Virus record (IMG/VR): IMGVR_UViG_3300032805_000003
Location: 24,939-88,938 of that record
Source of the DNA: a virus
Direction: 5' to 3' (one strand)
DNA: 64,000 bases
Notes under the pieces: generated by a model
The model's database searches: none
What the model was told of the DNA's origin: nothing
The model's input: only the letters and a program-made list of their open reading frames with translations
Shown: positions 2,453 through 64,000 of the stretch, piece by piece
Position numbering within the stretch: the stretch's first letter is position 1
Layout: every line of letters starts with the position of its first letter
Translations under genes and position numbers: made by a program

Positions 2453-2973
2453 GGCTGGTACCGGATCAGCGGCTCGTCGCCGCGGACGAACAACGGATGC
2501 CGCGGCTGGCCGTTCGCAGTCAGCCCCAGGCAGTGCAGCTGGACGCCGTCCAGCAAAGCGAGGACGTCCCGGGCGCGGCCGCGGTGAGCGCCGTGCAACC
2601 CCCAGGCTGCGACGACCACCGGCGACGACTCAGCGCGCGCCTTGATGACCAGGTTGTTGTCCGGTCCTTCGGGCGCCAGGTGCTTGATCATCACACGCGG
2701 GTGGGTGGCCCGCAGCGCGAACAGATTCACCACCGCCAGCCCGTCATACCCCCAGGCTTTGCTGTAGGCGATGCACCGGCGGATCGTCGGATCATCGGTG
2801 TTCTCGTCGGCGGTCGACGGGTTCAGCATGATCCAGGTCACGCAGTACGGCTTGGGACCCCAGTGGCGGGTCAGGTCGTACCGGTACACCCGGTCCGGGC
2901 TGAACACCGCCCGGCTGGACTGGCCGAACAAGTCCAGATCTAGTCCGGTCGTCTCGACTGGGGCGGCGGTCAT
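2449..2973 (-). CDS. DUF1643 family protein
   Basis: The 174-residue product matches the DUF1643 pattern. YLRFDL-like text (YRYDLTRHWGPKPYCVTWIM) is followed by the hallmark MLNPSTADENTDDPTIRRC, then GLAVVNLFALRATHP, and WGLHGAHRGR followed by LHCLGLTANGQPRHPLF. The family is common in phages and mobile elements and its biochemical role is not settled. I take the ATG at 2973, which overlaps the dnaN stop by four bases. The longer frame upstream is an antisense shadow of dnaN. Confidence in family membership is high; function is unknown. Confidence 0.8.
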   Translation of the reverse strand: MTAAPVETTGLDLDLFGQSSRAVFSPDRVYRYDLTRHWGPKPYCVTWIMLNPSTADENTDDPTIRRCIAYSKAWGYDGLAVVNLFALRATHPRVMIKHLAPEGPDNNLVIKARAESSPVVVAAWGLHGAHRGRARDVLALLDGVQLHCLGLTANGQPRHPLFVRGDEPLIRYQP

Positions 2974-4112
2974 CGGGAGTTCTCCGTCCGCATCGGCATC
3001 ACCAGCGCGCGGAACTGGTCGTCTTCGGCGCGGGTGACCAGCGCCGGCTTGAACGACCCGGTCATCCGGATCCGGACCTGCCCGGGCACTGGCAGCAGGG
3101 CGTCTCGCAGCAGTTCGGGCCCGAACCCGATCTCCAGCGGCCCGCCTTCGGTCTTGGCCGGCAAAGATTCGACGGCGGTGATCGCCGCGCCGGTGCCGGC
3201 CCGCAGCGTCAGTTCCCCGTCGCCGACCTTCAGATGGATCGCGGTCTTGCGCTCGGCGGCGATCCCGACCCGCTTGATCACCTGAACGAGCCCGGCCGCG
3301 TCGGCTTCGACGACGACCGGGAACTCCCGGTTCTTGCCCATCAGCGACCGGTAATCCACGAACTCGCCGCCGGCGCACCGGATCGTCACCCGCCGGCGCC
3401 CCAGGTCGCTGGCGAACCCGGCCAGCCCGGTCCCGTCCGAACCCGGATCCGGCAGGCTGATGGTGATCTCGCCGGCGTCGGGCAGGCCTTTGACGAACGC
3501 CGCCAGCGCTTTGCCCGGGACCAGCGCCGTCCGGGGATCCATGCCCGGGTCAGCCGGGGTCCAGGGCAGGTCGACGGTCGCGAGCTCGTACCGGTCGGTG
3601 GCAGCCAGCACCAGCCCGGTCTTGCTGGCTTCCAGGCACACCGTCGTCAGCACCGGCAATTCGGTGTCGCTGCTGACGGCGGGCAGCACGCTGGCGACCG
3701 CCTGAGCGAACCCGGCCGGCGAGCACGACCCGGCCGGCGCGGAAGTCTCCGGGAACTGCGGGTACTCGTCCAGCGGCAGGGTGTTCAGCGAGAACTTGCT
3801 GGTTCCGCACGCCAGCCGGAGCATCGCGCCGTCCAGCTCGAGGTCGGCTGGCTTGGCGGGCAGGCTGGCGGCGATCGTGGTGAACAGCCGGCCGGGGATC
3901 AAGACGGCACCGGGTTTGTCGCTGCGGACACCGGTGACGCTGATCTGAGCGCCGTTGTCGCCGTCGAACGCGTCGACGATCAGCGTGCCTTCGCGGGCGG
4001 TCAGCCGCAGGCCGGCGTAGACCGGGACGTACGGGCGGGCCGGGAGCGTGCGAGCAGCCCACGCGGTAGCGCTGGCCAGATCGCTCTGGCTGATGGTGAG
4101 TTTCACGGTCAT
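2970..4112 (-). CDS. dnaN: DNA polymerase III beta sliding clamp homologue
   Basis: The 380-residue protein has the length and three-domain layout of a bacterial beta clamp. It begins MTVKLTISQSDLASATAWA, includes PVYAGLRLTA and DGDNGAQIS in domain I, a central DEYPQFPE segment, LAATDRYELATVDL in domain II, EFVDYRSLMG, and ends RALVMPMRTENSR, matching the clamp C-terminus (..LVMPMR). Clamps encircle DNA and tether replicative polymerases. Carrying its own clamp suggests the phage redirects host polymerase III or ensures clamp supply. It is coupled by four-base overlaps to the DUF1643-like gene and the tandem-HTH gene. Confidence 0.93.
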   Translation of the reverse strand: MTVKLTISQSDLASATAWAARTLPARPYVPVYAGLRLTAREGTLIVDAFDGDNGAQISVTGVRSDKPGAVLIPGRLFTTIAASLPAKPADLELDGAMLRLACGTSKFSLNTLPLDEYPQFPETSAPAGSCSPAGFAQAVASVLPAVSSDTELPVLTTVCLEASKTGLVLAATDRYELATVDLPWTPADPGMDPRTALVPGKALAAFVKGLPDAGEITISLPDPGSDGTGLAGFASDLGRRRVTIRCAGGEFVDYRSLMGKNREFPVVVEADAAGLVQVIKRVGIAAERKTAIHLKVGDGELTLRAGTGAAITAVESLPAKTEGGPLEIGFGPELLRDALLPVPGQVRIRMTGSFKPALVTRAEDDQFRALVMPMRTENSR

Positions 4113-4642: not shown

Positions 4643-4938
4643 TGGTCACCACCCATCGCGGCCCGGACCGCGGCGATCCCCCGCCGGGACGCCTCCGCTT
4701 GCCTGGGATCCGGCTGGGCGGGCCGGCGCGCATGCAGCGGGTTGCGGGACGCTTCCGTCAGATCACGCGGGCCGGCCTGCTCGTCGACCATCAGCCGGAC
4801 GGTCTCCTGCAAGATCCGGGGCCATGGCCAGCCGGCGGAACGGACAGCGCCGATCGCGCCGGCGAGCCGGTCCCGGTCCCAGTCCGGCCGGACTGCGGCG
4901 GCCAGGTCGATCAGCTGGAGGGTGGCGACTTCGATCAC
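4639..4938 (-). CDS. Hypothetical 99-residue replication-operon protein
   Basis: It starts MIEVATLQLIDLAAAVRPDWD, with helical text RLAGAIGAVRSAGWPWPRI and an Arg/Pro-rich tail. The first 60 residues resemble small helical proteins found beside replication genes in actinophages, but I cannot name a family. It overlaps both neighbours by four bases. Confidence 0.65.
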   Translation of the reverse strand: MIEVATLQLIDLAAAVRPDWDRDRLAGAIGAVRSAGWPWPRILQETVRLMVDEQAGPRDLTEASRNPLHARRPAQPDPRQAEASRRGIAAVRAAMGGDQ

Positions 4939-5498
4939 GGTTCGCTCCTTCGTGGCTGGCGTCGTGATTCGGCGGCTTGCCGGCGCGCGATCGCTTGCGG
5001 GCTTTCGATCGCCCGCCGCCGGGCCGGCCCTAGGATCTGCCTGAGTTCTCCGAACGCGGCCCGCAGCGACGCGGGCGGCCCGTTCGTTCGCATCACCGGC
5101 GCGGCGAGCGCCCGGAACGCGCTGGTGACCGGCAAAGCGTGGCCGTCGCCAGCGCGCCGGATGTTCGCCTGCAACGCAGCCTGGAAAGCTGGCGGGTTGT
5201 CGGCCAGTTCTGCGGGCGGGTCGTCGACGACCGACTTCTTGATCCGTTCGGCGCGGGTTGCCCTGACCCGGCGCCGGATGTCAGCGGGCATGATCCAGTC
5301 CCGCGTTTCGCGGTAATGCGCCTGGACGGCTTGCGCGCAGTCGGCGTAAGTCAGGTCGCCGATCATCTCCAGCCAGAACCCGATCACGGCGTTGCGGCCT
5401 TCGACGTCGTCTTCGTCCGGCGGCTTGCGGTTGTCCGCGAGCGCCATCAGGCCGAGCAGTTTGCCGACTTCGCCGGGAGTCATCCGGGGCTGGTTCAC
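4935..5498 (-). CDS. Replicative helicase loader/inhibitor-like protein
   Basis: The 187-residue protein begins MNQPRMTPGEVGKLLGLMAL. It carries the pattern seen in actinophage helicase loader/inhibitor-like proteins: a short helical N-terminus, GFWLEMIGDLTYADCAQAV, AHYRETRDWIMPADIRRRV, then a basic, disordered-looking tail. Such proteins are thought to deliver or hold the replicative helicase at the origin. It lies directly downstream of the initiator gene with a four-base overlap, as expected for an initiator-loader pair like lambda O-P. No helicase (DnaB) gene is visible, so host DnaB would be the partner. The functional name is an inference from pattern and position. Confidence 0.65.
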   Translation of the reverse strand: MNQPRMTPGEVGKLLGLMALADNRKPPDEDDVEGRNAVIGFWLEMIGDLTYADCAQAVQAHYRETRDWIMPADIRRRVRATRAERIKKSVVDDPPAELADNPPAFQAALQANIRRAGDGHALPVTSAFRALAAPVMRTNGPPASLRAAFGELRQILGPARRRAIESPQAIARRQAAESRRQPRRSEP

Positions 5499-6448
5499 CG
5501 GCCCGCGCCCCCTTCCGCCTCGAAACCGAGCCCGGCGTCCATCCAGCCGCGCGCCCGGTCCGGCGCTGACGGTGAGGCAGGCCTGCTGCCGTTGCGCTGT
5601 CCGGCGCCCCGGATTTCGCCGAGGGCGACGGTGATCGTGCCGCCCGAGACCGGCCGGCGTTCGCGGGCGAGCTTGTCGAGTGCCCGTGCTACGTCGTTGC
5701 GCGGAAGCCCGTTGGCGATGGCGGTGCGGATGACGCCGCGGATGGCCAGGAACGGCTGGGCGGTTGCGGACTTGTGGTGTTCCCAGAACGCGGCGGCCAG
5801 CTCGTCGGCGACGTCGTGCTTGCGCTGTCCTCGCCGCTGGGGTGCAACTGGTTGCACCCCAGGGTTTTCGGCCGCCGTGGTTGTACCTGAGCTATCTGCA
5901 CCTACAGGTACATCAAGGGGGTTGAGGTTAGTAGTTAGTTTGGGTGCAATGGGTTTCACCCCAGGCGACGCTGTATTGCACCCCAGCAAATCGGACACTT
6001 GAGGTGCAGTGGGTTGCACCCCAGGGGATTCATGCAGGTCAGAGCCGGTTTGGGGTGCAATAGGTTGCACGTCAGCCTGGGGTGAATCTGGTTGCACCCC
6101 AAGGTCAGCCTGGGGTGCAACCGGTTGCACCCCTTGGGGTGAACCTGATTGCACCCCAGCGACGCGCTCCATCGCCAGGTCATAGACCATCGGACGACGG
6201 TTCTGCGGCAGGTCCCCGGTCAGCGACTGGTCCCCAGGACGGATCAGGCCGAGTCCGACAAGAAGCGCCAGGTCGTACCGCACCTGACGCTGGCTCTTGC
6301 GGGCATAGCCGCTCAAGGTGAGAGCGCTCGGGAAGGCTCCGCGGCCTTGCTTGTCGGCGTGGTGGGCGAGGCCGAACAGGGAGCCGACGCACTGCGGCGG
6401 AACGTCTGGCGCGTCGCGAAGCGCCCACACGATCGCCTCGTAGCTCAT
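5495..6448 (-). CDS. Winged-helix replication initiator containing internal iterons
   Basis: The 317-residue protein has an N-terminal HTH_36-type winged helix (residues about 1-85: MSYEAIVWALRDAPDVPPQ, FPSALTLSGYARKSQRQVRY, LGLIRPGDQ). A repetitive linker with the peptide GVQPVAPQ and variants at least seven times follows, then a helical C-terminal domain (HDVADELAAAFWEHHKS, GVIRTAIANGLPRNDV). I prefer the ATG at 6448 because MSYEAIVWALRD is the usual start of this domain; a GTG at 6508 is in frame. The linker repeats are the coding image of DNA iterons, so the gene probably both encodes the initiator and carries the origin. A divergent promoter region lies upstream. Confidence 0.75.
   Translation of the reverse strand: MSYEAIVWALRDAPDVPPQCVGSLFGLAHHADKQGRGAFPSALTLSGYARKSQRQVRYDLALLVGLGLIRPGDQSLTGDLPQNRRPMVYDLAMERVAGVQSGSPQGVQPVAPQADLGVQPDSPQADVQPIAPQTGSDLHESPGVQPTAPQVSDLLGCNTASPGVKPIAPKLTTNLNPLDVPVGADSSGTTTAAENPGVQPVAPQRRGQRKHDVADELAAAFWEHHKSATAQPFLAIRGVIRTAIANGLPRNDVARALDKLARERRPVSGGTITVALGEIRGAGQRNGSRPASPSAPDRARGWMDAGLGFEAEGGAGR
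5837..6159. repeat. Palindromic iterons and AT-richer patch, putative replication origin
   Basis: Eight related sites lie in this stretch. The best copy (5837-5862) has perfect 12-base arms, CTGGGGTGCAAC and GTTGCACCCCAG, around a two-base centre. Other 26-base copies are at 5939-5964, 5999-6024, 6050-6075, 6077-6102, 6110-6135 and 6134-6159; a half site (TTGCACCCCAG) is at 5976-5986. Between the first and second copies, about 5881-5940, base composition becomes clearly richer in A and T, a plausible melting region. All lie inside the initiator coding sequence. By analogy with lambda ori inside gene O, this is the best candidate origin in the window. Confidence 0.75.
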
Positions 6449-6644
6449 GCTGCATCCCGGCGGGGAAGCCCCGCCCGCCGCATGGCGCTCATTGTCACCG
6501 ATTCCCACCGTCTGCTTTTTCCGTTTCGCGTACTTGTGGTATGCCTACACTACACGTTGCATCGTGGCAACGCTACCTGTAGGCGAATGCCGTGTAAATA
6601 TGGCATACTGGTGACGTGGCCTAGAGACGTGCCACGATTAGGGA
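6449..6644. promoter_or_regulatory. Divergent promoter/operator region between initiator and small HTH gene
   Basis: This gap is less GC-rich than its surroundings. It contains CGTTGC-6-GCAACG (6555-6572) and a wider inverted pair GCCTACA (6543-6549) and TGTAGGC (6578-6584). Leftward, TTGCCA followed 17 bases later by TAGGCA could form a sigma-70-like promoter for the initiator operon. Rightward, TAAATAT and CATACT near 6594-6612 are candidate -10 elements for the HTH gene at 6645. The promoter assignments are inferred. Confidence 0.5.
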
Positions 6645-6899
6645 GTGACCGACGACATGGCTGGAGTGCTCGCCGCGCATCAGGCGTATCTGGACGCCCC
6701 CGACGAAGCGAGAGAACTACTCGCCCGCCGCCGCGCCCAGCTTGGTCTTGCGGTCGCCCGGGAACGAGGCCAGGGCACATCGCAGAGAGCCATCGCTGAA
6801 CGACTCGGCCGGACCCGCGAGCAGATCCGCCGTTATCAGCAGGCCTACGACGACTGGCAGCATGACCACCCTGACGAGCAGCTAGAAGCAGTCGGCTAG
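6645..6899 (+). CDS. Small HTH DNA-binding protein
   Basis: This is the only rightward gene in the first 13 kb. The 84-residue product starts MTDDMAGVLAAHQAYLD (GTG at 6645, or ATG at 6657). A clear HTH covers about residues 45-70: GQGTSQRAIAERLGRTREQI followed by RRYQQAYDDW. It sits divergent to the initiator operon over an inverted repeat and converges on the leftward gene ending at 6903. An autoregulator or switch controlling the initiator promoter is a reasonable guess from position. Confidence 0.72.
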   Translation: MTDDMAGVLAAHQAYLDAPDEARELLARRRAQLGLAVARERGQGTSQRAIAERLGRTREQIRRYQQAYDDWQHDHPDEQLEAVG

Positions 6900-9309: not shown

Positions 9310-9968
9310 CGGCCGGCCCCGTACGGCTTGATCAGATCCCAGATGTCGCGGACCTGGCGGGCGTCGGACAGGGCTTCATGGATCTGGTAGGCGCTCAAGT
9401 CCAGCCCGAGCGCGGTCGTGATCTCGCTCAGGCTGGTCGACTCGGGCAACGGCGGCCCGGTCTTGAGCAGGCCGAGGCCGTGCGGGTCGTCCCACGGGAC
9501 AGTGTCCGGCAGCTGGCCGGCCAGGTGCCGCTGGCCGGCCAGCCATCCCAGGTACAGGCTGCCGATGTCAACCAGCCGGTAATCCCACGCCGGTGCCTGA
9601 CCGTTGGCTCGCAGGAATTTGTCCAGGAACCCGGCGTCGAACGCCGGATTCTTGGCGACGAACGCCGCGTCCGCGGTCAGCGCAGCGAACGTCCGGGCTG
9701 TTTCGCGCGGGTCAGCCCACGTACAGCCTTTGGTGCGCTGGTAGTACCGGCCGATCCGCAGCGCGGTCGTCTGCGCGTGCTCCATCGACGGAGGTTCGAC
9801 CAGCCACCAGTATTCGCCGTCCAGGTAGGCACGGGCTTCTGGACAGTCCGGGCGGATAGTCGCCCACGGTTCGCGGACGATCAGGCCGATCTCCCACAGA
9901 TGCCCGGTCAACGGCGAGTCCGTAGTGGTCTCGACGTCGACGAAGCACACTCGCTCGGGCAGTTTCAT
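9306..9968 (-). CDS. DnaQ-like DEDDh 3'-5' exonuclease
   Basis: The 220-residue protein carries the three exonuclease motifs: CFVDVETTTDSP (Exo I, D11 and E13), FVAKNPAFDAGFLDKF (Exo II) and HEALSDARQVRDIW (Exo III with His and Asp). These match DEDDh-type proofreading or RNase-T-like nucleases acting on single-stranded 3' ends. It is coupled by a four-base overlap to the UvrD-like helicase, suggesting joint end-processing during recombination or replication. Confidence 0.87.
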   Translation of the reverse strand: MKLPERVCFVDVETTTDSPLTGHLWEIGLIVREPWATIRPDCPEARAYLDGEYWWLVEPPSMEHAQTTALRIGRYYQRTKGCTWADPRETARTFAALTADAAFVAKNPAFDAGFLDKFLRANGQAPAWDYRLVDIGSLYLGWLAGQRHLAGQLPDTVPWDDPHGLGLLKTGPPLPESTSLSEITTALGLDLSAYQIHEALSDARQVRDIWDLIKPYGAGR

Positions 9969-11659
9969 GCGCTCATCACCGCCAGCTCGTTCACCAGGTC
10001 AGCCAGCTGACGGCCATGGCCGGCGGCGGCAAGGTCGAACAACGCGCCCTGCGGCCCGGCCTCAGCGACGGTCTCTGTGGCGGGCCCGGGCACCGGGGCG
10101 GTCTCGGGCTCGGGATCCGGGTCGTCGTCCGGGTCGTCGTCCGGGTCGCCGGCGAGAGCGTCCAGGAACCGGGCGACCCACGCCAGCCCGGCCGGGTCCA
10201 GGACGTACTGGGCGCGGGTGACCGCGACGTAGGCGAGCATCGCGTCAGTGCGCGGGATCTTCGGCTCGCTGCCGTCGCGGGACTTCGGCTCGCGGAAGTC
10301 GTCAGCGATGACGACGTTCCGCCATTCCCGGCCCTTGGCCTTGTGGGCGGTCGAGACGATGACGTCTGCTTTGCGCTCGTCGCTGGTGACCCGGTTCAGG
10401 ATCGCCAGCAGCCCGTCCGTGCCGTGCGAGTCGACCAGGTCAGCGAACACCTTCAGGTCCTGGCCTTCGGGGTCGTTCTCGACGTAGTCCTGGAACTGGC
10501 CCCAGGTCGTGAACCCCATCAGTTCCGGGTGTTCTACCGGCCGGCCCGCCTTCAGGTCCTCGGCGGCGCGGGTGAGGGCGATCAGTTCGCCGACACCGCC
10601 GGCCATCGCGACTTTCAGGCCCTTGTCCAGCAGGCCGATCGCCTGCTTGATCACTTCCGCGTTGGTCCGGCACAAGATCGCGTCCGGCTGGCCGAGGGCG
10701 ACTTCACCGACCCGGTCCTGGATCTTGTCCCAGCCGCGGAGCGGCTTGGTGACGCCCAGGATCGTCAGCCACTGGTTGCCGACTTCGGCGATCGCCGGCC
10801 CGAACCGGAACGACTGGGTCAGCGACAAGACGGTGACCCCGGACTGCTGGCTGAAGTCGCGCATCGCGTCGGTCGCGCCGCGCCAGCCGTAGATCGCCTG
10901 GTTCTGGTCACCGACCATGATCAGCTGGGTGCCGTACCGGGCCTGCTCGCACACCATCGCGGCGACGCAAGGGTTCGAGTCCTGCGCCTCGTCCAGCATG
11001 ATCACGTCGCCGGGCAGGTGCGGGTGGGTCAGCGCGTACGCCTTCAGGTAGTGATCATGGGTGACCGGGAACCGGCCGTGCGGGTGATGCGGGCTCCCGC
11101 TGCCCAAGATCGCTTCAGGCTGGGTGATGTCGTTGTCCCACGCCTTCTGGGCGATCGGCGGGACGATCTTCCGCAGCGCGGCGATCTCGGCCGGGTCCGA
11201 CAGGGACTTGATGTCGGACGGGACATGCCAGCCGGTGATCTTCTCGTCAGCCGAGTAGCAGAACTTGGCGATCGTCTGCCGGACCACCGAGGCCAGCTGG
11301 CCGGGGGCCAGGACCCGGTCGGCGGTCAGGCGGGCCGGGCCGAGGATCCCCAGCACTCTCGCCAGCTGGAGGCCGGTCATCCGGCCGCCGCCGATCCGCT
11401 TGGCCATGTCGATCATCGGCCGGTACGCCAGCCCGTGGCTGGTGACGCACCTGGCGTTGACCGGGAACGACCGGGCGGCGTCGTCTTTCGCGGACCGGTT
11501 GTAGGCGATGTACAGCACCTTGATGCGCGGGTTGGCGCTGGCCAGCAGCCTGAGTGTCGACGTCTTGCCGGTGCCGGCGTACGCGCCGATCACCAGGTTC
11601 TTGCGCGCCAGGTAGGCGTCGATGATCGCCTGCTGTTCCGGGGTGGGGGTGAAGGTCAC
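9965..11659 (-). CDS. UvrD/Rep-family superfamily 1 DNA helicase
   Basis: The 564-residue protein has the SF1A motif order. A Q-motif region TPEQQAIID leads into Walker A GAYAGTGKTST (about residues 25-35). Motif II MLDEAQDSNP is near residue 221, motif III GDQNQAIYGWRG near 248, motif IV SLTQSFRFG near 281, STAHKAKGREW in the C-terminal half, and motif VI LAYVAVTRAQ near 480. It should unwind DNA with 3'-5' polarity. Start is GTG at 11659 with GGAGA upstream. It is directly preceded by the strongest copy of the element-specific leftward promoter. A 575-codon rightward frame across it is a shadow. Confidence 0.92.
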   Translation of the reverse strand: MTFTPTPEQQAIIDAYLARKNLVIGAYAGTGKTSTLRLLASANPRIKVLYIAYNRSAKDDAARSFPVNARCVTSHGLAYRPMIDMAKRIGGGRMTGLQLARVLGILGPARLTADRVLAPGQLASVVRQTIAKFCYSADEKITGWHVPSDIKSLSDPAEIAALRKIVPPIAQKAWDNDITQPEAILGSGSPHHPHGRFPVTHDHYLKAYALTHPHLPGDVIMLDEAQDSNPCVAAMVCEQARYGTQLIMVGDQNQAIYGWRGATDAMRDFSQQSGVTVLSLTQSFRFGPAIAEVGNQWLTILGVTKPLRGWDKIQDRVGEVALGQPDAILCRTNAEVIKQAIGLLDKGLKVAMAGGVGELIALTRAAEDLKAGRPVEHPELMGFTTWGQFQDYVENDPEGQDLKVFADLVDSHGTDGLLAILNRVTSDERKADVIVSTAHKAKGREWRNVVIADDFREPKSRDGSEPKIPRTDAMLAYVAVTRAQYVLDPAGLAWVARFLDALAGDPDDDPDDDPDPEPETAPVPGPATETVAEAGPQGALFDLAAAGHGRQLADLVNELAVMSA

Positions 11660-12052: not shown

Positions 12053-12432
12053 ACCGGGCTTGATCCGGGTGCCGACCAGATGCGGGAACCGGGCCGCGAG
12101 TCCCGGTCAGCACCGGGCAGCAGATAGTCCTCCAGGTCGCCGGAATCGTTCCCGGCGGCGATCGCCAGAAGCGAGTCCTCGTCGACCGTGAACGTCGTCG
12201 TGCCCTTGTGAATCGAGATCGTCCCGATCTCAGTCCCGTCCGGCAAGATGACAGCCAGAGTCTTGTCCGCCTTCCGCCGCGCCGCGGCGAACACGATCTG
12301 CGCAGCCGCGCGAGCGCCTTCTTTCGCCCGTTCTGCCTGATCGGCCTGCCCGGTCTTGATCGCGACCCGCAGCGCGTGCCGCTGCAACACTGCCGGAGTC
12401 GGCGGCGTGACAGTCTCGTCCTGGCCGCTCAT
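11962..12432 (-). CDS. N-terminal part of a frame-interrupted conserved protein
   Basis: The frame begins MSGQDETVTPPTPAVLQRHA, with a long helix (QAERAKEGARAAAQIVFAAA) and the compact beta signature LAVILPDGTEIGTISIHKGT, VDEDSLLAIAAG, DLEDYLLPGADRD. After about codon 110 the text turns into low-complexity Ser/Pro/Arg residues, while the natural continuation appears in the -1 frame. This architecture (helix, DGTxIxTISxxKG, then RP..Q..LE, then TGRFxYRP) matches a conserved actinophage early protein of unknown function. It overlaps the erf stop by four bases, so it is the second gene after it. Confidence 0.6.
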   Translation of the reverse strand: MSGQDETVTPPTPAVLQRHALRVAIKTGQADQAERAKEGARAAAQIVFAAARRKADKTLAVILPDGTEIGTISIHKGTTTFTVDEDSLLAIAAGNDSGDLEDYLLPGADRDSRPGSRIWSAPGSSPVCGPSIRPSWRRTTGRSPAGAAGNASKSLW

Positions 12433-13520
12433 GACTGCTGCGCCTTCGCCTGCTTGGCGGCGGCCGCCAGCTGTTCCCGCCGCTTGGCGATGTCACCGAA
12501 CAGCGCGTTGGCGGTCTGCGGGGTGATGTCTTTGCTGGCGATCGCCTGACCGATCTCGCGCTGTAGCTTCCGGACCGCGGCCTCGTCCGGGGCGTCCCAC
12601 AGCTTCGCGGTGAACTCCTTCAGCCATTCCGGGTTCTCGCCCGGGCCGGCCACCGGTTCCGCAGGCTGGCTGTCGCTGGCCGGCCCGGGCATCTGGGGCT
12701 CGGCGCCGGGGTCGCCGGTTTCAGCCTGCGCAGTCTGCGCTTGCGCCTTCAGGCTGTTCACCCGCGCTGTGATCGCGTTCGACAGCACGTCAGCCCGCGC
12801 CTCGTCGATCTGGCCGTCTTTCAGCTGCTGGCCGATCTCCCGCCAGACTGCGGTAGCGTCGTCACGGCCGGTGATCTCGTCGATCTTCGGCCTCCACGGG
12901 TCTTCCGGATCCAGCGGCCTGTGCTGCGGCGCGGGCCGTTCAGCTTGCGATGACTGCTGCTGGCGACGCGGCCGGTTCCCCGGCGCCGGGGCCGCTTGAT
13001 CGAACGACTCGCCGCGGCGGGACTGGCGGCGCGAAGAATGGTCCTGGCGCTCGGTCCCGGCACCGTCCAGGTCCTCTTCGGCGACGATCCCGGTGACCGC
13101 GCAGAAGCAGTACCGCTTGGCGTAGGTGATCGCCCCGCCCAGCTTCTGCAGATCACCGCCCGACAGGGGGAAGAAGCCGCGTTCGCTTTCGCCGGACGGG
13201 CCGTGCTTGAGCTTGTACCGGAGACCGAACTGGCCTTTGCGCATCGTCGGCTTGGCGATGTACGCCAGCCCGTGCCGGCCCAGCAGCGGAAGCCCGGCGC
13301 GGTGGACGGCGGCCAGGTCGGCGTAGCTGTAGCTGAAGCCTTGCTTGCCGTCTTTGCCGGGGATCGTCGCGTCTTTGTTCTTGTGGACTTCCGGCAGTTC
13401 CATCTGGAACGCCGCGAGGGCGTCGGCCAGGGTGTCGTGCTTGACGGCGGTCATCGCTGGCCGCGCCGGCGATGATTGCTCGGCGGCGGCGGTCTTGCTG
13501 CCGTTGGTGGTGGTGCTCAT
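12429..13520 (-). CDS. ERF-family single-strand annealing recombinase
   Basis: The 363-residue protein has an ERF core at about residues 30-160: LADALAAFQMELPEVHKNKD, FSYSYADLAAVHRAGLPLLG, HGLAYIAK, a short GPSGESERGFFPL loop, then LQKLGGAITYAKRYCFCAVT followed by GIVAEEDLDG. This matches Erf/Sak-type recombinases that anneal complementary single strands for phage recombination. The C-terminal half is Gln/Pro-rich linker plus a helical domain with two KxLQxEIGQAI-like repeats (REIGQQLKDGQI, REIGQAIASKDI). A strong AGGAAGGGAG ribosome site precedes the ATG. Gene order ERF, helicase, exonuclease is typical of a phage recombination module. Confidence 0.85.
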   Translation of the reverse strand: MSTTTNGSKTAAAEQSSPARPAMTAVKHDTLADALAAFQMELPEVHKNKDATIPGKDGKQGFSYSYADLAAVHRAGLPLLGRHGLAYIAKPTMRKGQFGLRYKLKHGPSGESERGFFPLSGGDLQKLGGAITYAKRYCFCAVTGIVAEEDLDGAGTERQDHSSRRQSRRGESFDQAAPAPGNRPRRQQQSSQAERPAPQHRPLDPEDPWRPKIDEITGRDDATAVWREIGQQLKDGQIDEARADVLSNAITARVNSLKAQAQTAQAETGDPGAEPQMPGPASDSQPAEPVAGPGENPEWLKEFTAKLWDAPDEAAVRKLQREIGQAIASKDITPQTANALFGDIAKRREQLAAAAKQAKAQQS

Positions 13521-32413: not shown

Positions 32414-33394
32414 GTGACTGATCTCGCCGAGCAAGCCCGGCTGGCGTACGCGGCCGGGTGGGCGCTGTCCGGCGGGCCGATGACTGCGCGTGTTCAGGCT
32501 GGCGGTGCCGCCGTCGTCGCCGCCAGCCTGAACACCCGCGATCCGGTGATCCTGGAAGTCGCGCTCCAGATCGGCAAGCTGGAAGGCACCTGGGCAACCT
32601 ACTTCCAGCGGCGGGAACGGCTGATCGCCGCCCAGACCGCCCTGGTGCTGAAGACCTGGCACCAGATCACCGCCAGCTTGCACCCCCGGCAGACGATCCG
32701 GCGGGTCAGCGCCGAACTCGGGCCCAAGCCGGATCCGGTGCAAGCCCGCGAGATCGCCGCAGTCGCCGCCGCCGGCTTGCTGTCCGGCGTGTACGCCCAC
32801 GACTCGCATCACCAGCTGCAGCAGATAGTGCAGGACGCGCTGAGGGCTGCGGCAGCTGAAGGCCAGGCCGGGTCGCTGGCGATCGCCGCCGACCGTCTTG
32901 GCCGGGCGTTCAGTTTCACCAGAACGTTCCGGATCTTGTACGGCCAGCTCGGGACGCTGCCCGAGTTGCCGTTGCTAGCCCAGCAATGGATCCAGCGGAT
33001 GATCGCCGGGGCTGCATCCTCCACCGGGTCGCTGATCGCCCGCATGATCACCGCCGGCAGCACCGAAACCGAAGTCGAGGCTGCGGTCACCAGCGCGCTC
33101 GGCACCGGCCTGGACGCAGCCGCCGGGCGGGCGGTGAAACTGTTCCTGGATCAGGCGATGACCCAGGCCATGTCTCAGGCGTCGATCCAGCTGTATCAGG
33201 CTGAAGGCGTCAGCCAGGTGTACTTCCTGACCGCCGGCGACGCCGCCGTCTGCGTCATGTGCCAGGAGGCGGCAGACGGGAACCCGTACACCACCCAAGA
33301 CGTCCCGACTCCCGGGCTGCATCCGGACTGCCGGTGCACCGTCACTCCAGCAGACCCGGAGCCGTATCAGGCGCTCGCCGCCTACCTGCCCTAG
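32414..33394 (+). CDS. MuF-like minor head protein
   Basis: I place the start at GTG 32414; the longer frame from 32306 crosses the leftward cassette. The 326-residue protein is helical (EQARLAYAAGWALSGGPMTA and onward). It ends with the Mu gpF-like zinc region: YFLTAGDAAVCVMCQEAADG, NPYTTQDVPTPGLHPDCRCT. CxxC, H and CxC are at about residues 280-312. Such proteins bind near the portal inside the head and may be ejected. Position two genes after the portal block is typical. Confidence 0.85.
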   Translation: MTDLAEQARLAYAAGWALSGGPMTARVQAGGAAVVAASLNTRDPVILEVALQIGKLEGTWATYFQRRERLIAAQTALVLKTWHQITASLHPRQTIRRVSAELGPKPDPVQAREIAAVAAAGLLSGVYAHDSHHQLQQIVQDALRAAAAEGQAGSLAIAADRLGRAFSFTRTFRILYGQLGTLPELPLLAQQWIQRMIAGAASSTGSLIARMITAGSTETEVEAAVTSALGTGLDAAAGRAVKLFLDQAMTQAMSQASIQLYQAEGVSQVYFLTAGDAAVCVMCQEAADGNPYTTQDVPTPGLHPDCRCTVTPADPEPYQALAAYLP

Positions 33395-63799: not shown

Positions 63800-64000
63800 A
63801 CCGGACCCGGATCCCGGTCCGGCCGGTGATCTTCGGTTTGTGCGACGGGGCCATGTCGATCCTGGGAGTCGTGTTCTATGCCGCCGGTCACGCCGGTGAG
63901 GTGTTCCCGGTCGCGTTGTCCGGCGGGCTGACGGCGGCGGTGTCGATGGCCGGCGGCCAGTGGCTGTCAGATTCAGACACCGGGCCGCTGGCAGCAGTCG
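63796..64000 (+). CDS. VIT1/CCC1-like membrane protein, truncated by window end
   Basis: Sixty-eight codons are visible from GTG 63796: RIPVRPVIFGLCDGAMSILG, VVFYAAGHAGEVFPVALSGG, and LTAAVSMAGGQWLSDSDTG. The order G-x-x-D-G...S-x-x-G-V-V ... SMA-G-x-x-L-S-x-S matches the first two helices of vacuolar iron transporter-like proteins, a fold that turns up as membrane proteins in actinophage genomes. Metal transport by the phage version is unproven. Confidence 0.6.
   Translation, partial: MNRTRIPVRPVIFGLCDGAMSILGVVFYAAGHAGEVFPVALSGGLTAAVSMAGGQWLSDSDTGPLAAV

Follow-up and report, generated by a model that had tools for sequence, protein, structure and literature searches.

Bases 5837-6159 of a 64,000-nucleotide stretch of viral DNA (hereafter the window; bases 24939-88938 of the 88,938-base virus record IMGVR_UViG_3300032805_000003) are highly likely to be a theta origin of replication lying inside the gene of its own initiator, where the initiator would bind a set of repeats (iterons), an AT-rich patch would melt, and DnaB would be recruited through a loader encoded by the next gene. 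The features that carry this reading were computed, namely the repeats themselves, selection at the DNA level, instability of the AT-rich patch, the domain layout of the initiator, the fold of the loader, and co-variation between the protein and its sites.

The array consists of seven 26-bp palindromes and one half site with the common core GGGGTGCAA, the same number as had been claimed in a preliminary description of the window, and its sole perfect copy is iteron 1 at 5837-5862, CTGGGGTGCAAC-TG-GTTGCACCCCAG, with 12/12 arm pairs. The remaining palindromes are imperfect: iterons 2 (5939-5964), 3 (5999-6024), 4 (6050-6075) and 7 (6134-6159) have 8/12 arm pairs each, iteron 5 (6077-6102) has 9/12 and iteron 6 (6110-6135) has 10/12. 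The half site, an exact GGGGTGCAA on the minus strand at 5976-5984, stands in a codon phase different from that of the other sites. When the 88.8-kb genome was scanned, nine of the ten exact copies of GGGGTGCAA fell within 5830-6165, and no second palindrome array was found in the whole genome. The single exact copy beyond the array is at window position 32678 on the minus strand. Among genome contigs the exact palindrome gave four isolated matches (Anaerolineae, Myxococcaceae and Nitrosomonadales), none with an array; two contigs of one Anaerolineae metagenome-assembled genome, for instance, carry the perfect palindrome AGGGGTGCAACATGTTGCACCCCT alone (L010:3034 and L011:3429).

Because the array lies in coding DNA, its repeats might have been selected as peptide, i.e., as a proline-rich linker, with the DNA palindromes arising from codon bias. 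The array does spell a repeating peptide, GVQPVAPQ, which is visible because the site spacings in the window (24, 33, 78, 38, 22 and 102) are mostly multiples of three; almost all full sites share one reading frame, which is unusual within the family, and most sites of L053, the closest relative of the initiator, are likewise in one frame. When synonymous codons were shuffled 5000 times with the protein fixed, however, the observed counts were never reached: GGGGTGCA occurs 9 times as against a mean of 0.96 and a maximum of 5, and GGGTGCAA occurs 10 times as against a mean of 0.70 and a maximum of 4. The linker is moreover predicted to be disordered, neighbouring genes show no such repeats, and relatives use the same word in two or three frames, so that their peptides differ. 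We therefore regard selection for the peptide as very improbable, and the suggestion in the preliminary description that the linker is a by-product of conserving DNA agrees both with the excess over the synonymous shuffles and with the other frames in which relatives read the word.

This use of several frames was examined in 271 initiator genes gathered from phages, plasmids and viral contigs, which form 119 clusters at 75% identity; they were retrieved by winged-helix similarity, and the clusters are mutually non-independent. The searches used sub-alignments, since a 15-row alignment was too diverse as a query, and the full-length window initiator found no relative among viral contigs. For each cluster the most repeated 8-mer was compared with a synonymous-codon null of 200 shuffles (p <=0.05), and it went beyond this null in 75 of the 119 clusters. 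The same-orientation word occupies two or more codon phases in all 75 passing clusters and all three phases in 34, and none of 67 genes that lie immediately downstream of initiators was positive when tested in this way (0/67). Neighbouring same-strand sites show a spacing of 22 bp, like that of classical iterons, in 53 of the 75 clusters, and one of 23 bp in 26; 22 bp corresponds to two helical turns and is not divisible by three, so the codon frame rotates from site to site in these relatives. The first site begins at a median of 292 nt past the gene start, right behind the winged helix, and iteron cores are nearly absent over several kb of flanks. Keepers of the DNA word in two or three frames include Arthrobacter and Pseudomonas phages, a Kineococcus plasmid and many viral contigs, and the frame changes give the unrelated peptides GVQ, RGA and TGC from the same DNA word. 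For example, the four copies of ACGGGGTGCA in Pseudomonas phage Pacha_bin_1 are translated as RGA, TGC and NGV, the five copies of GGGGTGCA in Arthrobacter phage LittleTokyo occupy three frames, and viral contig L009 has the exact palindrome in a different frame. A kept peptide with decayed palindromes had been proposed as the outcome to look for against an origin here, and the relatives present the opposite; judged from these comparisons, selection is keeping the DNA sites and not the amino acids that they encode. Homologous initiators with intragenic repeats were also noticed in the actinobacterial plasmids L025, L029, L026, L028 and L027 (GGGGTGCTT, GGGGGAACT, GGGGTGCGAC, GGGGTGCA and GGGGGGACT), where dnaB is next in two and dnaN in one.

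Another line of evidence connects the sites with the protein itself. The iteron cores vary by cluster (GGTGCA, GGTGAC, GGTGAA, GGTGTC, GGGGCGC, GGCCGGAC and others), and for the 52 clusters with a GGTGnn core we scored each column of the winged helix-turn-helix (wHTH) domain as a predictor of nn. Residue 58, the second past a conserved Val in the recognition helix (position V+2), has the top mutual information with nn (z 9.3; next column 5.4). Among natural relatives, LittleTokyo gp44 has Asn at V+2 and Coral gp44 has Arg. Arg at this position accompanies C as the second base in 15/15 clusters and a non-Arg residue accompanies a base other than C in 35/37 (Fisher p 3e-11, relatedness ignored); on a tree built without column 58, each of the two traits needs 8 changes. 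Six phylogenetically independent pairs could be drawn on supported branches, of which 4-6 agree and 0 disagree. Since a recognition-helix residue co-varies with an iteron base, which is the best available evidence on this point, the encoded initiator very probably binds the repeats of its own gene. A clustered regularly interspaced short palindromic repeat (CRISPR)-like or transposon-end repeat was considered and rejected, as the sites stay within a single gene and co-vary with the protein that it encodes. The co-variation also bears on the possibility that the array is some other cis site, such as a centromere for partition, a signal for packaging or recombination, or an additional late origin at which forks stall, like SPP1 oriR. 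Iteron arrays do serve as centromeres and fork barriers as well, but here the recognition helix links the sites to the initiator itself, the genome is without a second array, and a putative helicase loader is directly next; we thus consider a site of this kind improbable.

The candidate DNA unwinding element lies between iterons 1 and 2, at 5881-5940, exactly where an AT-richer patch had been described. By nearest-neighbour energy only two other 60-mers of the 88.8-kb genome are less stable (99.98th percentile of instability), so the melting profile that had been proposed as a check lends support to the patch. An inverted repeat, TGTACCTG-N15-CAGGTACA, was also noted within it at 5882-5912.

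The gene that follows the initiator, at 4935-5498 on the minus strand with a 4-bp overlap, encodes a putative helicase loader with a predicted helical N-terminal fold like that of G39P. Its product has no meaningful match in Pfam, its PHROG matches are all of 'unknown function', and no sequence likeness to a named loader family was found. The predicted structure (mean predicted local distance difference test score, pLDDT, 81) was matched by Foldseek to SPP1 G39P, 1NO1_A, with probability 0.99, a template modelling (TM) score of 0.82 on the target, a root-mean-square deviation of 2.0 over 71 columns, at an E-value of 0.54; other matches of like E-value are plainly spurious (TM ~0.25). Because this E-value is weak, the assignment is founded on fold quality and context. 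In L053 the gene order is initiator, a homologue of the 4935-5498 product (39%) and then a DnaB helicase, and in Pseudomonas phage vB_Pae_U2 the initiator is followed by DnaC-like and DnaB genes. The earlier proposal of a helicase-loader-like gene is supported by the predicted fold together with the initiator-loader-DnaB operon in L053.

The binding, melting, loading of host DnaB, theta replication and origin activity that we infer may be pictured as follows. The N-terminal winged helix of the initiator would bind the GGGGTGCAA half sites, which here form inverted pairs spaced by 4 bp (convergent dimers), and the protein would load onto the array cooperatively; the loaded array would then strain and melt the AT-rich segment 5881-5940, and the initiator would recruit a DnaB-type helicase through the loader 4935-5498 in the manner of SPP1 gp38, gp39 and gp40. 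A profile search for DnaB_C gave no match in the phage genome, so the cargo is likely to be the host DnaB. The linker peptide would be mostly a by-product of the DNA.

Several observations weigh against an origin in this place. The sign test on the six independent pairs gives p ~0.06, limited by the number of pairs. As many as 44 of the 119 clusters do not reach significance in the 8-mer test (p 0.05), in part owing to degenerate repeats, which are visible in several of them. The window iterons are without the regular 22-bp spacing of the family, and no canonical copy of the AACCRTC element described below was found past them. The loader is assigned by fold alone, with the Foldseek E-value given above. 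Cumulative GC skew, which had been suggested as a check, proved uninformative: its maximum at 36.8 kb and minimum at 87.1 kb (genome positions) track gene strand, and the array is unmarked.

A further alternative, which keeps binding by the initiator, is that the array is mainly an autoregulatory or incompatibility site acting by roadblock or handcuffing, and that the true origin is elsewhere, e.g., in the divergent intergenic region 6509-6644 (136 bp) between the initiator operon and a small helix-turn-helix (HTH) gene at 6645-6899. Iterons often double as control sites, as is established for iteron plasmids, and this intergenic region is unstable, with one of the least stable 100-mers at 6515, and contains the inverted repeats GTATGCC/GGCATAC (6539-6545 and 6602-6608) and CGTTGC-N6-GCAACG (6555-6572). 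On the other side, nearly all clusters have their sites ~290 nt into the gene, away from promoters, the flanks are nearly without cores, one of the most unstable 60-mers of the genome falls within the array, and SPP1 and pSK41, which have a like layout, use intragenic sites as the origin. We judge a mainly regulatory role unlikely, and the part around 6539-6608 is likely a promoter/operator region between the initiator operon and the small HTH gene. The interpretation of the preliminary description, an origin within the initiator gene, appears well supported overall by these sequence comparisons.

The initiator coding sequence (317 aa) occupies 5495-6448 on the minus strand and matches PHROG 1032, 'replication initiation protein', at E=1e-12. 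We place its start at the ATG at 6448, and not at the GTG at 6508 that is the upstream limit of the open frame, because homologues begin at the MS..A..W residues. The N-terminal winged-helix domain, residues 1-98 (6155-6448, minus strand), was assigned from HTH_36, AlphaFold2 (AF2) and alignment. The pLDDT of AF2 is >90 over residues 1-90, which together with the PHROG match upholds the winged-helix initiator claimed earlier; the recognition helix is SQRQVRYDL, with Tyr58 at position V+2 by alignment. The Pfam HTH_36 match itself (E=9e-4, 19.4 bits) is under the 25-bit cut-off, whereas relatives score well over it, and annotated phage initiators share 34-50% identity with this winged helix. 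The linker, residues 99-207 (5828-6154, minus strand), is predicted to be disordered with pLDDT mostly <50, and its DNA is the candidate origin. Residues 206-315 (5504-5833, minus strand) form a C-terminal helical domain in the AF2 model, with phrog_5718 matching at residues 229-301. Pfam RepA_N has no match in the window initiator, and comparison of its structure with 4pql/4pt7 gives weak fold resemblance only.

The domains of this protein have different distributions. L053 is 62% identical over 173 residues, with the BLAST alignment ending at residue 190; it has the winged helix (~70% identity over the first 95 residues) and the iteron in common with the window, and the C-terminal domains differ. 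The C-terminal domain of the window initiator (5504-5733) recurs in Streptomyces phage Vondra gp40 (L024), where the N-terminus is unrelated, a recurrence that, at the sequence level, is domain shuffling. Likewise, Micromonospora phage pMLP1 (L307) has a C-terminal domain that is similar to the L053 type and is joined to another N-terminus. An origin placed beside the code of its reader would, by analogy, be movable together with it as one block.

Concerning the genome as a whole, record bases 1-127 are identical to 88812-88938 (window 63874-64000), a 127-bp direct terminal repeat, so the record most likely represents a complete circular genome of 88,811 bp; its G+C content is 68%. Downstream in the same-strand gene run, a sliding clamp (DnaN-like) is encoded at 2970-4112 on the minus strand (Pfam DNA_pol3_beta, E=1e-34), and a UvrD-type helicase (9965-11659) and an ERF annealing protein (12429-13520) share its gene block.

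In many relatives a second element, repeats of AACC(A/G)TC, follows 3' of the last iteron at ~20-60 bp, e.g., GAACCGTCCTTGAACCGTCCTTGAACCGTCC in Arthrobacter phages; other carriers include L014:3415-3450, L026, L048, L054, L145, L150 and L257. Across the 119 clusters there are 163 sense and 16 antisense copies, where 40 +/- 5 are expected from synonymous shuffling; the element was spotted by eye and counted on the same set, so that the count is descriptive, with the shuffles, strand bias and period serving as controls. Its density is 1.63 per kb in the genes vs 0.13 in flanks, 62 of 79 close pairs are spaced by 10-12 bp, and all codon phases are used. In the window, 5881-5945 has a loose AACYNNC spacing only, no better than noise, and in L053 a copy with one mismatch stands at the expected offset. 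Our guess is that AACCRTC is an unwinding element with helical phasing; within the wHTH family it may melt and be kept single-stranded, or a conserved partner may bind it. No description of it was found in openly licensed literature, which does not prove novelty.

Taken more broadly, there is about an even chance that these genes form a large wHTH family with self-encoded sites, in which the V+2 residue sets GGTGCA vs GGTGAC/GGTGTC and many members share the AACCRTC element, the window branch having in-frame palindromes and a decayed AACCRTC. The self-encoded recognition code and the strand-specific AACCRTC element are possibly new. For a phage of GC-rich bacteria, the window would supply a candidate origin that is compact, and a family loosely annotated as 'helix-turn-helix' gains predicted binding sites and a predicted specificity. 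With protein and site encoded together in a few hundred bases, public sequence offers hundreds of natural protein-site pairs for direct reading, and how winged-helix specificity and origin incompatibility evolve becomes directly testable. AACCRTC would, on confirmation, count as a conserved component of phage origins.

The initiators of Arthrobacter and Pseudomonas phages in PHROG 1032/270 (e.g., LittleTokyo gp44 and vB_Pae_U2) have a homologous wHTH domain and an intragenic GGGGTGCA core, like the window; unlike it, they mostly have direct half-site repeats at intervals of ~22 bp and in rotating frames, with AACCRTC repeats after them, and their C-terminal domains and loaders differ from those of the window. 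The layout itself is already known from SPP1 gene 38/oriL, pSK41 rep and lambda O. In lambda, iterons and an AT-rich region are inside the O gene, the loader gene P is next, and the host DnaB is used. The parallel with lambda O/ori/P that had been drawn in the preliminary description is fair as to layout, i.e., iterons and an AT-rich region within the initiator gene and an adjoining loader gene, but the loader fold and the sequence, number and spacing of the iterons differ; PHROG calls relatives 'replication initiation O-like', and the likeness to O here is by layout only. Nearer parallels are SPP1 genes 38-39-40 with oriL (PMC6316719) and the rep genes of pSK41 and pPR9 (PMC5703833).

In SPP1, gp38 binds oriL within gene 38 and gp39 loads gp40 (PMC6316719). 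SPP1 genes 38-39-40 resemble the window in having repeats and an AT-rich unwinding element inside the initiator gene (PMC6316719), and further in a loader of G39P fold (predicted, in the window) that comes next with an overlapping ATGA junction and a DnaB-type helicase in third place, which is matched in L053; gp38 is likened to the window initiator by layout and description, not by sequence. Unlike SPP1, the window has repeats that are G+C-rich inverted GGGGTGCAA pairs, and its phage is without a DnaB match and without a second origin array. In the staphylococcal plasmid pSK41 the origin is central in rep, and the linker segment of the protein is dispensable (PMC5703833). The pSK41 RepA_N protein and pPR9 Rep are built, like the window initiator, of a wHTH domain, an origin-encoded linker and a C-terminal domain, their Rep boxes being likened to the window iterons by description, not by sequence. 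They are unlike the window in host phylum, and the window initiator has no RepA_N match and has a separate loader gene next. The pPR9 Rep carries a pfam13730 N-terminal domain and replicates autonomously (PMC5703833), and it has the Pfam HTH family HTH_36 in common with the window initiator. In pPR9 the DNA-binding domain and the origin stretch have been exchanged together with the pSK41 C-terminal domain retained (PMC5703833), so that, as in the window vs L053, the DNA-binding domain and the origin move jointly and the C-terminal domain separately.
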